DNA of 64,000 nt from an uncultured Fibrobacter sp. (lineage in GTDB: Bacteria; Fibrobacterota; Fibrobacteria; Fibrobacterales; Fibrobacteraceae): NCBI RefSeq assembly GCF_947305105.1, contig NZ_CAMZCS010000007.1:62001-126000 (forward strand), given 5' to 3'. Below the pieces are notes generated by a model. That model was not told the DNA's origin, did no database searches, and worked only from the letters and a program-made list of their open reading frames with translations. Both the position numbers and the translations under genes were made by a program. Below, in pieces: positions 5,291 through 14,919 of this stretch (position 1 is its first letter; every line of letters starts with the position of its first letter).

Positions 5291-5848
5291 GTGGAACAGG
5301 TATTGCTCTACATATTGCTCGGTCTCGAAGTCGTGCTGCGCGTAGTGCTTGAGGTGCGCGAACGCAGGCTGACTCAAGTGCGTGGCGGCGTGTTCGCAGT
5401 GCTCCGCCTTGTGCCGCTTTTAAACGACATCGTGCCCCTGCCCGAATCACGCAAGGCGCCTGCCGCCTCGGCCTTTGTCGAGAAGCACGAAGAAGGCCAC
5501 AAGAGCCTGCACCACGGCATCCTGCGCAGCGTCACCAAGATTATCTTCTTGATTGTCGCCGTGTGGTTTTTGGCCGCGATGCTCTCGCGGTTCGGCCTCA
5601 CCATTTACGAATCCGTGCTGTGGCTGCACTTGGCCGCCATACCCCTCCGGATGATATTCCATCTGTACTGCTGGAACCAGGAATACGAAGCCGACGCTTA
5701 TGCGATGAAGCAGCTCGGCAAAGCCAAGGCTAAAGAAGCCATGCGCGACCTTGTCGCAAGCGAAATCCCGTACACGAAGCTCTTTGCCGTCGTGTACCGC
5801 GAGCACCCGACCGCAACGCTGCGCCAACGCCGCCTGTTTGCGAAGTAA
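5291..5848 (+). CDS. M48-like membrane metallopeptidase
   Basis: A 185-residue protein with a GTG start 7 bp after the DUF4954 stop. It carries a zinc-protease HExxH motif (HEEGH, residues 66-70) and an EYEADAYA segment at 131-138, the place and form of the third zinc-ligand glutamate and following Asp in family M48. A hydrophobic segment at about 84-98 and another at 108-125 are probably membrane-embedded between the two motifs, as in HtpX-like enzymes. It is much shorter than HtpX (about 290 residues) and lacks the second N-terminal hairpin. Target proteins unknown; a quality-control role at the inner membrane is inferred from the family. Confidence 0.75.
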   Translation: MEQVLLYILLGLEVVLRVVLEVRERRLTQVRGGVFAVLRLVPLLNDIVPLPESRKAPAASAFVEKHEEGHKSLHHGILRSVTKIIFLIVAVWFLAAMLSRFGLTIYESVLWLHLAAIPLRMIFHLYCWNQEYEADAYAMKQLGKAKAKEAMRDLVASEIPYTKLFAVVYREHPTATLRQRRLFAK

Positions 5849-5910
5849 AAATTGACATTTTATGACATCTGTTTGAATGTATTTTTATACAGTATCAAAT
5901 GGAGGTCATT

Positions 5911-6777: not shown

Positions 6778-7881
6778 ATGATGAAAGACTTATATATCAC
6801 AAAACAGAAAAATATGACCGCACTGGCAGAATATCAGCGAAAGTTGTGGAAAAATCCACAGCTCTCTTATCTATTCCTTGAAGTGACGGATTGTTGCAAT
6901 TTAAAATGCAAGCATTGCGGAAGCGGTTGTCTGTCAACAAACCGGAACTATTTGCCTTTTGAAACCGCTCAAAAAGTCCTGGACGAAGTCGCTAAGGAAT
7001 TCGACGCATCGCAGATATTTATTTGCATTACAGGCGGCGAACCACTTTTGAACAAAGAACTATTCAAAATCATCGCCTATTCCAAGCATTTAAATTTTTC
7101 TTGTGGTATAACAACAAATGGAACATTATTGTCGGAAACCGTTGGAGAACAGTTCAAAAATGCCGGACTTGACACAATTTCTATCAGCTTGGACGGTCTG
7201 GAAAAAACACACAACGACTTTCGATGTTCCCCAAATGCATTCCAACAAGCGCTGACAGGCATTCGAAATGCGAAAAAAGCAGGATTATATCCTGAAGTTG
7301 TAACAGTAGTCCACAAAAACAATTTAAAAGAACTCGACATCCTATACGAATTCCTTTGCGATGAGAAAATCGAATCATGGAAAATTGCGAACATCGACCC
7401 CATCGGCAGAGCAAAAGACAACTCTTCGATGCTTCTCAACGCTCACGAATACAAAATGCTGCTTGATTTCGTTAAACGAATACGGTTCAAACCAAGAAAC
7501 AGCATGGAAATAAATTTAGGTTGTTCACACTATCTTGGAATGCAATACGAGTATATGGTTCGCGACTTTTATTTTCAATGCGGAGCGGGGACGAAAATCG
7601 CAAGCGTCATGGCAAATGGCGATATCGGAGCATGCCTAGACATTGAAAGGAATGATTTAACAATACAGGGAAACATTTATAAAGAATCTTTCGTAGATGT
7701 TTGGAAAAAAAAGTTTGAAATTTTCCGTCAAGATAAAGCGGAGTTAAATTCGCAATGCAAACAATGTAGCGAACGGGAATTTTGCATGGGAGATTCAACT
7801 CATACCTGGGACTTCCAAAACAACGAACCCAATTACTGCGTTTTCAAAATGCTGGAGGATTATTATGGTCAAGATAAATAG
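6778..7881 (+). CDS. Radical SAM protein with SPASM domain
   Basis: A 367-residue radical SAM enzyme. The cluster motif C40-x3-C44-x2-C47 sits in TDCCNLKCKHCGSGC, followed by the GGEPLL motif near residue 85 and ISLDG near 140. The C-terminal part has a SPASM-type Cys series: CGAGTKIA...GDIGAC, then CKQCSEREFC and a last C in NYC, enough for at least one auxiliary 4Fe-4S cluster. SPASM enzymes usually modify peptides or proteins. The start is uncertain: ATG 6778, ATG 6781, TTG 6760 and ATG 6814 are all in frame and none has a clear ribosome site. It overlaps the next gene by 17 nt, so the two form an operon. Base composition here is distinctly more AT-rich than the flanking genes. Confidence 0.85.
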   Translation: MMKDLYITKQKNMTALAEYQRKLWKNPQLSYLFLEVTDCCNLKCKHCGSGCLSTNRNYLPFETAQKVLDEVAKEFDASQIFICITGGEPLLNKELFKIIAYSKHLNFSCGITTNGTLLSETVGEQFKNAGLDTISISLDGLEKTHNDFRCSPNAFQQALTGIRNAKKAGLYPEVVTVVHKNNLKELDILYEFLCDEKIESWKIANIDPIGRAKDNSSMLLNAHEYKMLLDFVKRIRFKPRNSMEINLGCSHYLGMQYEYMVRDFYFQCGAGTKIASVMANGDIGACLDIERNDLTIQGNIYKESFVDVWKKKFEIFRQDKAELNSQCKQCSEREFCMGDSTHTWDFQNNEPNYCVFKMLEDYYGQDK

Positions 7882-8644
7882 AAAGCCAAAAGAATATCGT
7901 GGACGTTGTGGAAACTGCCAAGCACCCCTGTTGAAGGGGGCCCGATATTGCGATCAATGTGGCACCAAAAAGGGCAATGGAGAATTTAAACCTTTTGAGA
8001 ATACAATACGAATCCTTTACGGTCCACCCATTAAAATCATCCAGCATTGTGAAGCATGCAATCATAAATGGTTAAAAGCAGGGATTGGCGTAAAAAAATC
8101 TTCATATTGTCCCAAATGCAATTCACCCTCTATAGAAATGCTAGAATTTTCGCGTTGGCATTATGGAGAAACCCTAGGGCACTATCTAGAAGACAACGAG
8201 CCACTGCAATTATTCACCAAAGACGAAGTGAATAAAATTCTGAGTTTGCGCGAAGAATACAAGAATTTTCAAAACCGTAACGAAGATTACAATGCAATAC
8301 ACAGGTTCATGAATCAAAATGGTTTCGAGGAACACGCGAAAGAATTGAAAGATACAATTTTGTCAAATCGTGAAGCGGAAAGAATAAATTTATCAAAAAA
8401 GATTTTAATGGTTGTCGGAAACGAAAACGCCTTAATAGCAGATTGCGTTTGCCCCAAATGCGAAGGCATAATAGCTAGTCAAATAAAAATTGAGAAAAAA
8501 ACGAAATTTCCCAAAGCGAATACACTGAAAGACAGCGAAATTTATTCACTTTCAGAGGATTATGTCAATCAAGATGCCAGTAAAGACGATTTAATGTGCT
8601 TACAATGCGGTCATGTTTTCAAAAATCCCACAAAGAAAAAATAA
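7865..8644 (+). CDS. Triple zinc-ribbon protein paired with the radical SAM enzyme
   Basis: A 259-residue soluble protein; GGAGG just upstream fixes the start inside the end of the radical SAM gene. I do not recognise the family. Three CxxC-pair zinc ribbons are visible: CGNCQAPL...YCDQC (about residues 15-37), CEACNHKW...YCPKC (61-84) and CVCPKCEG...LMCLQCGHVF (198-251). Between the second and third lies a charged helical region (residues 105-180) with no catalytic signature. It could be a substrate carrier, a nucleic-acid binding partner or the substrate of the radical SAM enzyme; the sequence does not decide between these. AT-rich like its partner, suggesting joint transfer. Confidence 0.7.
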   Translation: MVKINRKPKEYRGRCGNCQAPLLKGARYCDQCGTKKGNGEFKPFENTIRILYGPPIKIIQHCEACNHKWLKAGIGVKKSSYCPKCNSPSIEMLEFSRWHYGETLGHYLEDNEPLQLFTKDEVNKILSLREEYKNFQNRNEDYNAIHRFMNQNGFEEHAKELKDTILSNREAERINLSKKILMVVGNENALIADCVCPKCEGIIASQIKIEKKTKFPKANTLKDSEIYSLSEDYVNQDASKDDLMCLQCGHVFKNPTKKK

Positions 8645-8672
8645 AGATCAGAGGGGATCACAAAAAGTGCCT

Positions 8673-8796: not shown

Positions 8797-9003
8797 ATGG
8801 AAAATCTCGGAAAACAGATTTCGGAAAGACGAAAAAAGCTAGGATTATCCCAAGAGGATCTGGCCGAGATTTCCGGTGTTTCGCCCAGAACAATCAACTC
8901 CGTCGAACTCGGGAAAGCGAACCCGTCCATCAACGTTTTGAGCAAGATGATTAAGCCTTTAGGTTTTGTGGTTACCTTAAGCGAAAGGGTTACGCATGAA
9001 TAA
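8797..9003 (+). CDS. hipB: HipB-like HTH antitoxin
   Basis: A 68-residue XRE-family DNA-binding protein. The helix-turn-helix is visible as LGLSQEDLAEISGVSPRTINSVE (core SQEDLAEISGVSPRTI), with the usual GKANPSINVLSKMIKPLG helix pair after it. It starts at ATG 8797, with only a GGGG ribosome site. It overlaps the next gene by 8 nt. By analogy with HipB it should dimerise, bind the two palindromes upstream and repress its own operon. In tripartite HipBST systems HipB alone does not neutralise the kinase efficiently; HipS does. Confidence 0.88.
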   Translation: MENLGKQISERRKKLGLSQEDLAEISGVSPRTINSVELGKANPSINVLSKMIKPLGFVVTLSERVTHE

Positions 9004-9331
9004 CGACAAAGTCCGCAGCGCATGCGTTTATTATAACGACATTCTTGCTGGGTATCTTTTGCAAAACAGCAGGGGCTACGCATTTTTTTACGACTCTGAT
9101 TATGTGGCTTCCCGAAATCCGTCCATCGCATTGGATATGCCGAAAAAGAAGCGTTTGTTCCGCTTGCCTTATTTGTTTCCGTATTTTCAAGGGTTACTCC
9201 CAGAGGGCGCGAACAAGACTTTTTATTGTGAGCGTCTCGGCATTAAGCGCACAGACAAATTTGCAATGCTCTTGAATCTCGCCAATCACGAAACAATCGG
9301 CGCTGTCACCGTACGCGAAAGGAGCCACTGA
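8996..9331 (+). CDS. hipS: HipS-like antitoxin (HipA N-terminal subdomain)
   Basis: A 111-residue protein corresponding to the N-terminal subdomain (Couple_hipA) of HipA encoded as a separate gene. Seen: the opening VYYNDILAGYLLQNSRGYAF, the PYFQGLLPEG motif and a closing ETIGAVTVRE, all standard for that domain. In the Escherichia coli HipBST system the equivalent small protein, HipS, neutralises the kinase HipT. It overlaps hipB by 8 nt and hipT by 1 nt, so the three are translationally coupled in the order B-S-T. Confidence 0.85.
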   Translation: MNNDKVRSACVYYNDILAGYLLQNSRGYAFFYDSDYVASRNPSIALDMPKKKRLFRLPYLFPYFQGLLPEGANKTFYCERLGIKRTDKFAMLLNLANHETIGAVTVRERSH

Positions 9332-10332
9332 TGGGTCTCTGCCATTGCTGCTTAAAAGAAACGGAACAAGATTTCTGTCGAGCCTGTTCGAAGGCTTTGT
9401 TTGACGTTTCTAGATTTAGCGCGACTTTGGATTTTGACGTTCCGCAACTCGCATTCGCAAAGGATGGAACAGTCAAGAGAATTTCTATTTCCGGGGCACA
9501 GACAAAGTTTTCAGTCCGAATAGAAAACAAGAAATTGGTCAACACAGATCGCGGTGGAACACACATTCTAAAACCGACCTTGTTGCCGTACTACGAGAAC
9601 TATCAAGACGCTCCTGCCAACGAACATGTGACTATGCTCATGGCACGTTTAATTTTCAAGATTCCTACGGCGTTATCTGCTCTTCTTTACTTCAAAAATG
9701 GCGACTCCGTCTACATCACCAAACGCTTTGACGTCATTGAAACTGGCGTGCATGCAGGAGAGCGTTTGAGTCAAAGTGACTTTGCGCAAATTGCAGGACT
9801 TGTTCCCGAAATAAACGGCAGCGACTACAAATACAAAGGTATTTCATACGAAGGAATTGCCGCACTGATTCGCGAGAACGTGAGTGCCGCCGACATCGCC
9901 GTCGAAGTATTTTTCAGAACAGTTCTTTTCAATTATATCGCGTGTAACGGCGATGCACATGCAAAGAATTTTTCTCTCCGCAATTCCGTCGAAAATCCCG
10001 ATGTCTATGATTTGACTCCCGCATACGATTTGCTGAATACTTCGCTTCACATTCCCTATGAGCAATCGCGTACAGCACTCGACTTATTCAAGGATGAAGA
10101 CGATTTCAAGACTCCTTTTTACGAGGCAAACGGTTTTTACGGCACTCCTGATTTTATGGAATTTGCCAAGAGAATTGGAGTCGTCGAGAAAAGAGCGGAT
10201 CGTTTTATAAAGCAGGCTATCGATGCCGTGCCCGCAATGGAAAAAATGCTGGACAAGTCATTCTTGAGCGAACAAGGCAAAGAGAAGTACAAAGAATCTA
10301 TCCGAGATAGAGCCAAAGCACTTGGGCTATAG
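9331..10332 (+). CDS. hipT: HipT-like serine/threonine kinase toxin
   Basis: A 333-residue HipA C-terminal kinase. Visible: a Gly-rich loop RISISGAQTKFSV with Ser52 and Ser54, the paired serines that are autophosphorylated in HipT; catalytic loop CNGDAHAKNFSL; and metal-binding DLTPAYDLLNT. Full-length HipA is about 440 residues; here the missing N-terminal part is the preceding HipS-like gene. Unlike E. coli HipT it begins with a CxxC...CxxC zinc ribbon (C4, C7, C16, C19), a feature I associate with split HipA proteins of Bacteroidetes relatives. HipA targets glutamyl-tRNA synthetase and HipT targets tryptophanyl-tRNA synthetase; the target here is unknown. Confidence 0.87.
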   Translation: MGLCHCCLKETEQDFCRACSKALFDVSRFSATLDFDVPQLAFAKDGTVKRISISGAQTKFSVRIENKKLVNTDRGGTHILKPTLLPYYENYQDAPANEHVTMLMARLIFKIPTALSALLYFKNGDSVYITKRFDVIETGVHAGERLSQSDFAQIAGLVPEINGSDYKYKGISYEGIAALIRENVSAADIAVEVFFRTVLFNYIACNGDAHAKNFSLRNSVENPDVYDLTPAYDLLNTSLHIPYEQSRTALDLFKDEDDFKTPFYEANGFYGTPDFMEFAKRIGVVEKRADRFIKQAIDAVPAMEKMLDKSFLSEQGKEKYKESIRDRAKALGL

Positions 10333-12987: not shown

Positions 12988-14919
12988 TTACCCCTTCTCA
13001 TACCTTACGTAGGCAAAGTGCTTGCTGTCGGGGGCCCAGGAGTTCACATTGATGGTTCCTTGGCCGCCGAAGAGCTTTAGGATGGTGCGGGGTTCGCTCC
13101 AACCGTTTTTGTCGTTGCCGGTCATGAGGCGGATTTCCACGTTCTTGTTGGGTACGTGTTCGCCGGGGCGCACGTCGCGCTCGTGGTAGGCGAGCATCAC
13201 GACTTTTTTGCGGTCGGGGGAGATGTGCGGGAACCAGGTGTTCCAATGTGCATCGAATGTCATCTGCGTCTGTTCGGAACCGTCGGCCTTCATGCGCCAG
13301 GCTTGCATGCGGCCTGTGCGTACCGAGTTGAACCAGATGTACTCTCCGTCGCTGTCGTATTCGGGGCCGTCGTTCAGCCCGAATGCAGTCGTGAGTTGCG
13401 TCTCGTTGCCGCCAGCGGCAGGAATTGTGTAAATGTCGTATTCGCCGCCCCGTTCGGCGCAGTAGGCGAGCGTCTTGCCGTCGGGAGTGATGCCGTGCAG
13501 GTAGCTCGGGGCTAGCGGTGTCACGAGTTCCGGCATGCGGCCGTCGAAGAAAATCTTGTAGATGCGTGAAAGGCCGTCTTCTTTGGTGTGGTGACTCACG
13601 TAGAGTCCGGTGCCATCGGGGGAAAGTACGTGGTCGTTATTGCAGTTGTCCACGAAGTGGCTCGGCACTTCGGTAATTGTGCCTGTGGCAATTTCGAATT
13701 TGTAGATGCGTCCTTCGCTGTTGTACGTGAGGAACTTGCCGTCGGTGCTCCAGTTGGGCGCCTCGATAACCTTATCGAATTCCTTGAGCAGTTTTGATTC
13801 GCCGGTCTCGATGTCATAAATTTCAAGGAAGGACTTGTCGCCGCTGCGGTCCCACACTTCGCCTGGGTTGAGCTCGAATGGGAAACTTACGCTCCATTGT
13901 GCGCGGAGCGAGTCCATCTGCGTCATTATCTGCATGGTCTTGGTGTGCGGCATTTCGGGGCATTCTTTGAGGCCCATCTCAAGGGCGGCTTTGCAGCCAA
14001 GCACTTCGTATTCGTAGCAGTTCTCGATGCGGGGTGGCTTCACGGATTCCAGTAGCGTTCCGGTGACATCGAACAACTGGATTTCCACCATGTCGTTGAG
14101 GTTCTGCACGCGGATAAAGCCTTCGGTTCCGTAAATTACGCCTTCGTTATGGAGCGGGGCCACCATCGAGGTTTTGAGGTGTGCGACTTGGCCGTTGGCA
14201 TAGACTAAATCAATCCAGTCCGTGGCATCGACGCCCGTATGGAACTTGACGCACTTCGTCTTTGTCTGCACAATATGATTTGCGACGCAGTTCCCACCGG
14301 TGGCATCGCGGCCGACCTTGCAAATTTCCGGATCTGTCAAGAAGATGTCCGCGAACGTGAGGCTGTAAATTCCCAAATCCAAAAGTGCGCCACCTGCAAG
14401 CGCGGGATTTTTCAATCTTTCGATATGCGAAAGCGGCATCGAGAAATCCGCTTCGACGCTTTCGACCTTGCCGATTTTCCCGGCAAAAATCCAGTCCTTC
14501 ACCATCTGCACTGCGGGCAAAAAGCGGGTCCACATCGCTTCGCTCATGAACACGCCTTTTTCTTCGGCGAGTGCAATGACTTCCGAGGCGAGCAAGGCAT
14601 TTGCGGTAAAGGCTTTCTCTACGAGCAGGTTCTTGTTGTATTCTAGACAAAGTAAAATGTTGTTGTAATGCTCGGAGTGCGGGGTCGCAATGTAAATCAA
14701 ATCCACATCTGGGTCTTGCGCGAGTTCTTCGTAGCTGCCGTAGGCGCGCTCGAATCCGTATTCGCTGGCGAACTTTTGTGCTTTGTCAAGTGAGCGGGAC
14801 GCGACTGCATAACATTCCACACCCATTCCGCGCTTTTCGAGCGCCTTGACGGCCTTGGCCATTTTCGTGGCGATATGGCCACAGCCGAGAATAGCAAATT
14901 TCATAATGGAATTACCCAT
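12988..14919 (-). CDS. Gfo/Idh/MocA oxidoreductase fused to a TolB-like beta-propeller
   Basis: A 643-residue two-domain protein. Residues 1-335 are a Gfo/Idh/MocA NAD(P)-dependent sugar dehydrogenase: Rossmann motif ILGCGHIATKM near residue 10, LIYIATPHSEHY, the EKAFT motif near residue 98 (EKP in most members) and a C-terminal sheet domain with GGALLDLGIYSL. After residue 345 the sequence changes to repeated PD40/TolB blades (for example TYNSEGRIYKFEIATG, SPDGTGLYVSHH, TPDGKTLAYCAERG), about 295 residues. The two halves normally occur as separate proteins. The start at 14919 has GAGGG upstream; an alternative is 14904. No signal peptide, so the propeller is probably cytosolic. Substrate unknown; the fusion suggests a carbohydrate sensor or processing enzyme. 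Confidence 0.82.
   Translation of the reverse strand: MGNSIMKFAILGCGHIATKMAKAVKALEKRGMGVECYAVASRSLDKAQKFASEYGFERAYGSYEELAQDPDVDLIYIATPHSEHYNNILLCLEYNKNLLVEKAFTANALLASEVIALAEEKGVFMSEAMWTRFLPAVQMVKDWIFAGKIGKVESVEADFSMPLSHIERLKNPALAGGALLDLGIYSLTFADIFLTDPEICKVGRDATGGNCVANHIVQTKTKCVKFHTGVDATDWIDLVYANGQVAHLKTSMVAPLHNEGVIYGTEGFIRVQNLNDMVEIQLFDVTGTLLESVKPPRIENCYEYEVLGCKAALEMGLKECPEMPHTKTMQIMTQMDSLRAQWSVSFPFELNPGEVWDRSGDKSFLEIYDIETGESKLLKEFDKVIEAPNWSTDGKFLTYNSEGRIYKFEIATGTITEVPSHFVDNCNNDHVLSPDGTGLYVSHHTKEDGLSRIYKIFFDGRMPELVTPLAPSYLHGITPDGKTLAYCAERGGEYDIYTIPAAGGNETQLTTAFGLNDGPEYDSDGEYIWFNSVRTGRMQAWRMKADGSEQTQMTFDAHWNTWFPHISPDRKKVVMLAYHERDVRPGEHVPNKNVEIRLMTGNDKNGWSEPRTILKLFGGQGTINVNSWAPDSKHFAYVRYEKG

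Follow-up and report, generated by a model that had tools for sequence, protein, structure and literature searches.

A pair of overlapping genes lies in the window, the whole 64,000-nucleotide stretch of Fibrobacter DNA that was analysed. The genes encode a radical SAM/SPASM enzyme and a protein with three predicted zinc ribbons (Table 1). The initial annotation had described both, and its reading of the enzyme is borne out by Pfam scores above cut-off for the Radical_SAM (82.9 bits, cut-off 29.5) and SPASM (35.9 bits, cut-off 21.5) domains; a CxxxCxxC motif and a C-terminal SPASM domain are both present. Translation likewise confirms the six CxxC motifs of the partner, which begin at residues 15, 29, 62, 82, 196 and 245 and form three pairs (15/29, 62/82 and 196/245), and the ORF coordinates confirm the 17-nucleotide overlap of the two genes (positions 7865 to 7881). 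No short precursor gene was seen at the locus, as had been noted before, and no leader was found there.

Table 1. Features of the gene pair and of the adjoining toxin-antitoxin locus (window positions; the first two genes are given from ATG to stop codon)
Feature	Coordinates	Strand	Basis
Radical SAM/SPASM enzyme (367 aa); clade and partner motif suggest a splicease type	6778..7881	+	Pfam, NCBIfam, trees
Predicted substrate, a zinc-ribbon protein of 259 aa with six CxxC motifs	7865..8644	+	Translation, motifs, strict linkage to enzyme
First zinc ribbon, C15xxC18 + C29xxC32	7907..7960	+	Translation, motifs
Predicted modification site L51-Y52-G53-P54-P55-I56	8015..8032	+	YGPPI invariant in 7 of 8 genomes here; fits TIGR04133-partner sites
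Second zinc ribbon, C62xxC65 + C82xxC85	8048..8119	+	Translation, motifs
Third, split zinc ribbon, C196xxC199 + C245xxC248	8450..8608	+	Translation, motifs
HipB-like	8797..9003		TIGR03070, 58 bits, under cut-off (71.7)
HipA N-terminal domain, 111 aa	8996..9331		TIGR03071, 72 bits, over cut-off
HipA_C kinase part	9331..10332		140.7 bits, over cut-off

The zinc-ribbon protein matches only generic zinc-ribbon models in Pfam, all below their cut-offs, and is not matched by the TIGR04134 lipoprotein profile at E 0.1. It carries no export signal. A VapD-like match at residues 130-157 (19.2 bits, cut-off 100; solved structures, E 0.16) was judged to be chance. AlphaFold2 models, made from the window proteins and those of loci L006 and L007, were too poor for use, both for the enzyme (pLDDT 48.8, 3 sequences) and for the zinc-ribbon protein (pLDDT 44.8, 2 sequences).

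The GC content is 0.392 in the enzyme gene, 0.372 in the zinc-ribbon gene and 0.385 in the pair, versus 0.528 in the window, and 19 of 1243 sliding windows of the pair's length have a GC content as low. The earlier claim that the pair is AT-rich therefore holds for its base composition, but its contrast with the neighbours is incomplete, as the HipBA genes (0.449) are also below the window mean. In the toxin-antitoxin locus, the HipA N-terminal domain is encoded apart from the kinase part, which together with HipB makes three genes; this organisation presumably resembles that of HipBST. Farther along, a single ORF on the reverse strand (12988-14919) combines a Gfo/Idh/MocA oxidoreductase with WD40-like PD40 repeats, and is either an unusual fusion or an error.

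Linkage and allele exchange in Fibrobacterota

A profile search finds the zinc-ribbon gene in 8 of 167 Fibrobacterota genomes. Enzyme searches at E 1e-45 match 90 of the 167, in which one clade (78-100% identity) corresponds exactly to the eight zinc-ribbon genomes, and the next relatives are at most 40% identical; the other 159 genomes have neither gene at these limits. The two genes are adjacent on the same strand in all eight genomes, so zinc-ribbon homologues do not usually occur without the enzyme, a possibility that the initial annotation had raised. This is a real, rare and strictly linked gene pair, and its association is not due to chance, as it is repeated in eight genomes and the genes adjoin every time. 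They overlap by 17 nucleotides in four genomes (G000, which is the window's own, G031, G006 and G144) and by 8 nucleotides in G124, and are separated by 1 nucleotide in G022, G110 and G113.

A scan of genome contigs retrieved only two records, both Fibrobacter sp. MAGs and one of them from sheep omasum. At E 0.01, plasmids and phages contained no relative of the zinc-ribbon protein, and none was detected in viral contigs. Two viral-contig matches of the zinc-ribbon module alignment were rejected, as these phage proteins have just one zinc ribbon and lack YGPP. Module alignment A2 matched 48 of the 167 genomes at E 0.01; the matches beyond the eight known genomes were weak and mostly to the first ribbon, and were also rejected. 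The enzyme had no match in viral contigs, and all of its relatives in plasmids and phages are at most 36% identical to it.

The surroundings of the cassette vary among the eight loci, and no third gene is conserved across them. HipBA-type genes lie downstream of the cassette in the window, G031 and G113. In G006 and G144 it is followed by restriction-like ATPase genes, which in G113 are found farther off; they were identified by AAA_5 (Pfam) in G144 and by PADLOC REase_II models in the other two. According to ORF labels assigned by reading alone, a small toxin-antitoxin-like pair is located ~2 kb away in G124, and housekeeping genes flank the cassette in G022 and G110. The toxin-antitoxin neighbour pointed out in the initial annotation thus adjoins the pair in the window, but is present in only three of the eight loci. 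DNA of three relatives (G013, G008 and G018) matches the window up to positions 5823-5851, and none of it matches further within 16 kb.

The zinc-ribbon proteins are of two types, which share 41-43% identity: type A (G000, G031, G006 and G144, with G124 at 59-60%) and type B (G022, G110 and G113). The gene overlap in type A suggests that enzyme and partner are translationally coupled. With G124 left out, the enzymes beside the two types are 91-99% identical regardless of type. Between the window and G113, the DNA of the enzyme gene is 89.7% identical and that of the HipBA genes 84.8%, whereas the zinc-ribbon gene between them is unalignable save for its last 54 nucleotides. Similarly, the enzyme genes of G144 and G113 are 95.5% identical and their AAA_5 genes 92.4%, and the zinc-ribbon genes align over the last 53 nucleotides only. 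The flanks are conserved and the gene between them is unalignable, so one partner allele has taken the place of another, and both are served by enzymes that are nearly identical. Residues common to the alleles may therefore reflect what the enzyme requires. Runs of at least four residues that are invariant in the seven proteins other than that of G124 are CGTK, YGPPI, CPKC, RINL, CPKC and LMCLQCG, among which YGPPI is the longest that is free of cysteine. Two alleles naturally swapped beside one enzyme also show which parts of a substrate would be dispensable to it.

The final 53-59 nucleotides of the zinc-ribbon gene (8592-8645) are kept between the otherwise unalignable alleles, as if they were a recombination landing site. 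DNA matching the toxin-antitoxin locus at 8797-10332 follows the cassette in G113.

An AT-rich accessory cassette that is missing at the same place in three relatives, lies near HipBA, restriction-like or (by reading) toxin-antitoxin-like genes in several genomes and exchanges its partner alleles could be a viperin-type anti-phage or conflict module, whose enzyme makes a small molecule and whose zinc-ribbon protein is a sensor or effector. The pVip models of PADLOC also match the enzyme's radical SAM domain. However, this match is generic to that domain and was set aside, the NCBIfam viperin profile scores 76.2 bits, short of its cut-off of 180, and the enzyme has a SPASM domain and is placed by the trees described below with XYG-linked peptide enzymes. 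We consider a viperin-type module very improbable; a zinc-ribbon protein edited by the enzyme may still have a role in conflict.

Relatives of the enzyme and their partners

The best family profile for the enzyme is TIGR04133 (rSAM_w_lipo), at 273.2 bits versus a cut-off of 425. The heme SPASM enzymes AhbD and NirJ come second (152 bits with TIGR04545, heme b synthase; 122-151 bits with the NirJ SPASM profiles), and TIGR04103, the nif11-class maturase 3 family to which PlpX presumably belongs, gives 123 bits versus a cut-off of 725. The enzyme is therefore below the cut-off of every NCBIfam family searched, TIGR04133 included, and its scores place it no nearer to PlpX-like enzymes than to heme b synthase. 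Its cysteines, including those of the SPASM domain, align with those of TIGR04133 members.

In a midpoint-rooted tree of 56 sequences, which has long branches and few outgroup families and is without other peptide-modifying SPASM families, the zinc-ribbon-linked enzymes are monophyletic (100/100) and sister to TIGR04133 (joint branch 100/99). A 100/99 branch sets the zinc-ribbon-linked, TIGR04133, PlpX-like and GDL enzymes apart from 13 heme-type and two Paenibacillus enzymes. The zinc-ribbon-linked clade is also recovered in an initial tree built with different outgroups. One Agathobacter enzyme falls within the PlpX-like group, and the one small neighbour of it that was examined is without YG. 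Unlike AhbD and NirJ, the cassette enzyme has no heme genes beside it, as far as was seen, in addition to being on the other side of the 100/99 branch.

Partners of TIGR04133-type enzymes are rich in Tyr-Gly sites. In 84 partner-like proteins at 35 loci, which are not independent (157 different 12-mers of 191), YG occurs 192 times versus 50.4 expected by shuffling, YG.P occurs 72 times versus 2.5 expected, and the reverse control GY occurs 24 times versus 51.3 expected. All but two of the 84 have at least one YG (82/84). Among neighbours called by a simple longest-ORF script rather than a gene finder, 54 of 62 next to TIGR04133-type enzymes contain YG versus 45 of 106 distant ORFs (p 4.5e-9), a comparison that is conservative because the distant set contains some array lipoproteins, and whose p value is merely indicative because the loci are related. 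The comparison began with 45 loci, of which two were removed where the search pattern missed the enzyme and four where no neighbour was called. YG was found nearby in 38 of the remaining 39, and the exception, L119, has a neighbour cut by the contig end.

Sites of this type are also seen at individual loci. TIGR04133-type enzymes on three plasmids adjoin lipoproteins that match TIGR04134 and have the sites EYGSP (Parabacteroides), EYGTP (Phocaeicola) and CYGMP (Treponema). In Nostoc, a TIGR04103 enzyme (853 bits, cut-off 725) is adjacent to a Nif11 precursor that ends in ALYGLPPELF and to a 71-aa gene. DUF1843 peptides at GDL-type enzymes have YG in two of two Azospirillum cases and one of three Aureibacter cases, the other two Aureibacter peptides reading YA. 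The window's genome itself contains two true TIGR04133 members on another contig (G000:C9; 624 and 594 bits), with lipoprotein sites such as PEYGCP and ALYGAPV. There, the locus L028 (G000:C9:1-16000) shows ~10 Ser-rich lipoproteins with repeated YG sites around the two enzymes.

The zinc-ribbon protein carries a matching site that starts at residue 49 and reads RILYGPPIKI or [RC][AI]IYGPPIRI (for example RAIYGPPIRI) in seven of the eight genomes, so that LYG or IYG occupies residues 51-53 and is followed by PPI. A matrix trained on the lipoprotein sites ranks it second among 19,266 12-mers of the window, with one other 12-mer scoring higher. YG.P has a background frequency of about 5-9% of ORFs, being present in 9 of 106 distant ORFs and in 3 of the window's 58, one of which encodes the zinc-ribbon protein. 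In the remaining genome, G124, IYGPP is confined to the second module, and the first has VYAPP, which lacks the glycine. The G124 protein (L051:7526-8599) has an extra second copy of the N-terminal module that is more like the other allele type, and it is the first copy that has lost the glycine of the site.

The enzyme groups with TIGR04133, a family that has lipoprotein partners, and the initial annotation had held that grouping with a maturase of another substrate would speak against the pair. The grouping is in part of that kind, but lipoprotein and zinc-ribbon partners share YGxP, and it therefore explains the zinc-ribbon protein rather than excludes it. The cassette also has a partner gene adjacent to the enzyme gene, as in TIGR04133/TIGR04134 loci. 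However, its enzyme forms a clade of its own, its partner gene follows the enzyme gene whereas the lipoprotein gene precedes it in most TIGR04133 loci examined, and the partner, unlike TIGR04134 lipoproteins, is a zinc-ribbon protein with one main site and no array.

Predicted splicing of the zinc-ribbon protein

In PlpX/PlpY systems, a SPASM enzyme excises tyramine at Xaa-Tyr-Gly and the backbone is rejoined as a ketoamide, as two reports describe (PMC11002830, PMC10373908), which also state that such spliceotides inhibit proteases. A third report (PMC10533398) gives MYG and LYG as natural PlpXY sites and 135.0757 Da as the mass loss, lists GGPIRPLYGLPI among the splice tags tried, indicates that the leader is not required, and mentions 27 further characterised and 939 predicted splicing systems. 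The site RILYGPPIKI shares an LYGxPI core with that splice tag. The cassette resembles PlpX/PlpY in its SPASM enzyme, in the XYG site (LYGxP) of its partner, and in that PlpX-like enzymes are on the same side of the 100/99 branch. It differs in having no Nif11 or nitrile-hydratase leader and in its large sequence distance, and splicing chemistry is here a prediction. No PlpY or RRE gene, looked for as a conserved third gene at the eight loci, was seen.

We propose that the two genes are a splicease-type modification cassette of rumen Fibrobacter, in which the enzyme acts on the YG site of its zinc-ribbon partner, most likely by tyramine excision; on balance, we lean toward this reading as a whole. 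The predicted enzyme-substrate link is well supported: strict linkage, the motif and allele exchange argue that the zinc-ribbon protein is a dedicated partner and, with good likelihood, the substrate. Since it bears a matching Tyr-Gly site, it is probably the protein that is edited, and L51-Y52-G53 is quite likely the position modified. The clade and the motif point to tyramine excision, which we favour slightly as the chemistry. The cassette probably represents a splicease-type variant whose substrate is a cytosolic zinc-ribbon protein, and the earlier view that no system of this form has been described is not supported, as the likely chemistry, XYG splicing, is already known. The literature searched yielded no description of TIGR04133 or TIGR04134, of a site in TIGR04133 partners, or of a zinc-ribbon SPASM substrate.

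SPASM enzymes catalyse many chemistries, and the enzyme could instead modify YGPPI by another SPASM reaction, such as a Tyr side-chain crosslink, oxidation or epimerisation, with tyramine kept. TIGR04133, the closest named family, is a hypothetical equivalog model only, and PlpX-like enzymes do not stand out in the profile scores. Yet Gly is favoured after Tyr and XYG sites recur in the sister clades, which agrees with the known splice site. Enzymes that form crosslinks generally require a second residue at a fixed spacing, and near the lipoprotein sites Pro at +2 after Gly is the sole frequent residue. A reaction of this other type appears quite unlikely.

The initial annotation had suggested a substrate, a carrier or a target-binding subunit. 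A dedicated partner and probable substrate is what the linkage in 8/8 genomes and the shared YGxP indicate, and the other roles make up a rival reading that we judge unlikely: the zinc-ribbon protein would be an accessory (an adaptor, a target-binding subunit or a metal carrier), YGPPI would be a structural turn of the ribbon pair, and the true substrate would be elsewhere, for example one of this genome's own YGxP lipoproteins. Binding of nucleic acid or protein is common among zinc ribbons, the same genome does have TIGR04133 enzymes with YGxP lipoproteins at another locus, and the first module of G124 reads YAPP. But those lipoproteins have their own enzymes at G000:C9, and TIGR04133-type enzymes are present in most Fibrobacter genomes without the cassette. 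The zinc-ribbon site also fits the lipoprotein site, and is retained while 58% of the zinc-ribbon protein changes.

With the zinc-ribbon protein as the substrate, the enzyme would recognize L51-Y52-G53-P54-P55-I56, within the stretch that links the first two zinc ribbons of the partner co-translated with it. It would most likely excise tyramine from Y52 and join the leftover Y52 carbonyl to L51. The product would be an alpha-keto-beta-homoleucine, or the isoleucine equivalent in the second allele, in a zinc-ribbon protein that is folded and cytosolic. Its electrophilic ketoamide could be the working part of this product, for example by trapping a protease nucleophile reversibly or by altering a binding surface, which is speculation by analogy with the reported inhibition of proteases by spliceotides. 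A more tentative, and in our view doubtful, extension is a leaderless, RRE-free splicease that puts a ketoamide between two ribbons, the edited protein being an exchangeable effector or protease trap of accessory islands near toxin-antitoxin or restriction-like genes. If the proposal is true, backbone splicing by radical enzymes would reach folded intracellular metal-binding proteins, beyond peptide natural products and exported proteins, and an orphan enzyme clade would gain a candidate substrate, residue and mass shift (minus 135.07 Da at L51-Y52-G53).

The comparison also offers a sequence rule for TIGR04133 partners, namely YG, often as YGxP. Other Fibrobacter SPASM enzymes, which come from ten genomes and are TIGR04103-like (L177-L186; 216-234 bits), resemble the cassette in adjoining a YG-bearing protein: all ten are next to proteins with repeated KYGYP-like sites. 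Unlike the cassette partner, these proteins lack zinc ribbons and contain roughly 10-20 YG repeats. L184:2604-3806 is an example, with ~10-20 KYGYPCG-like repeats per protein, and these proteins are apparently multi-site substrates. Pfam gave no convincing domain for the repeat proteins, whose N-terminal part may resemble chagasin-type protease inhibitors. An eleventh TIGR04103-like locus, L176, is from another family and has no clear YG-repeat neighbour. At L105-L116, from genomes of family f9 in the same phylum, TIGR04133-type enzymes mostly accompany exported-looking proteins of ~250 aa that bear YG sites, and the two that were tested match weakly to a secretion-system C-terminal sorting domain.
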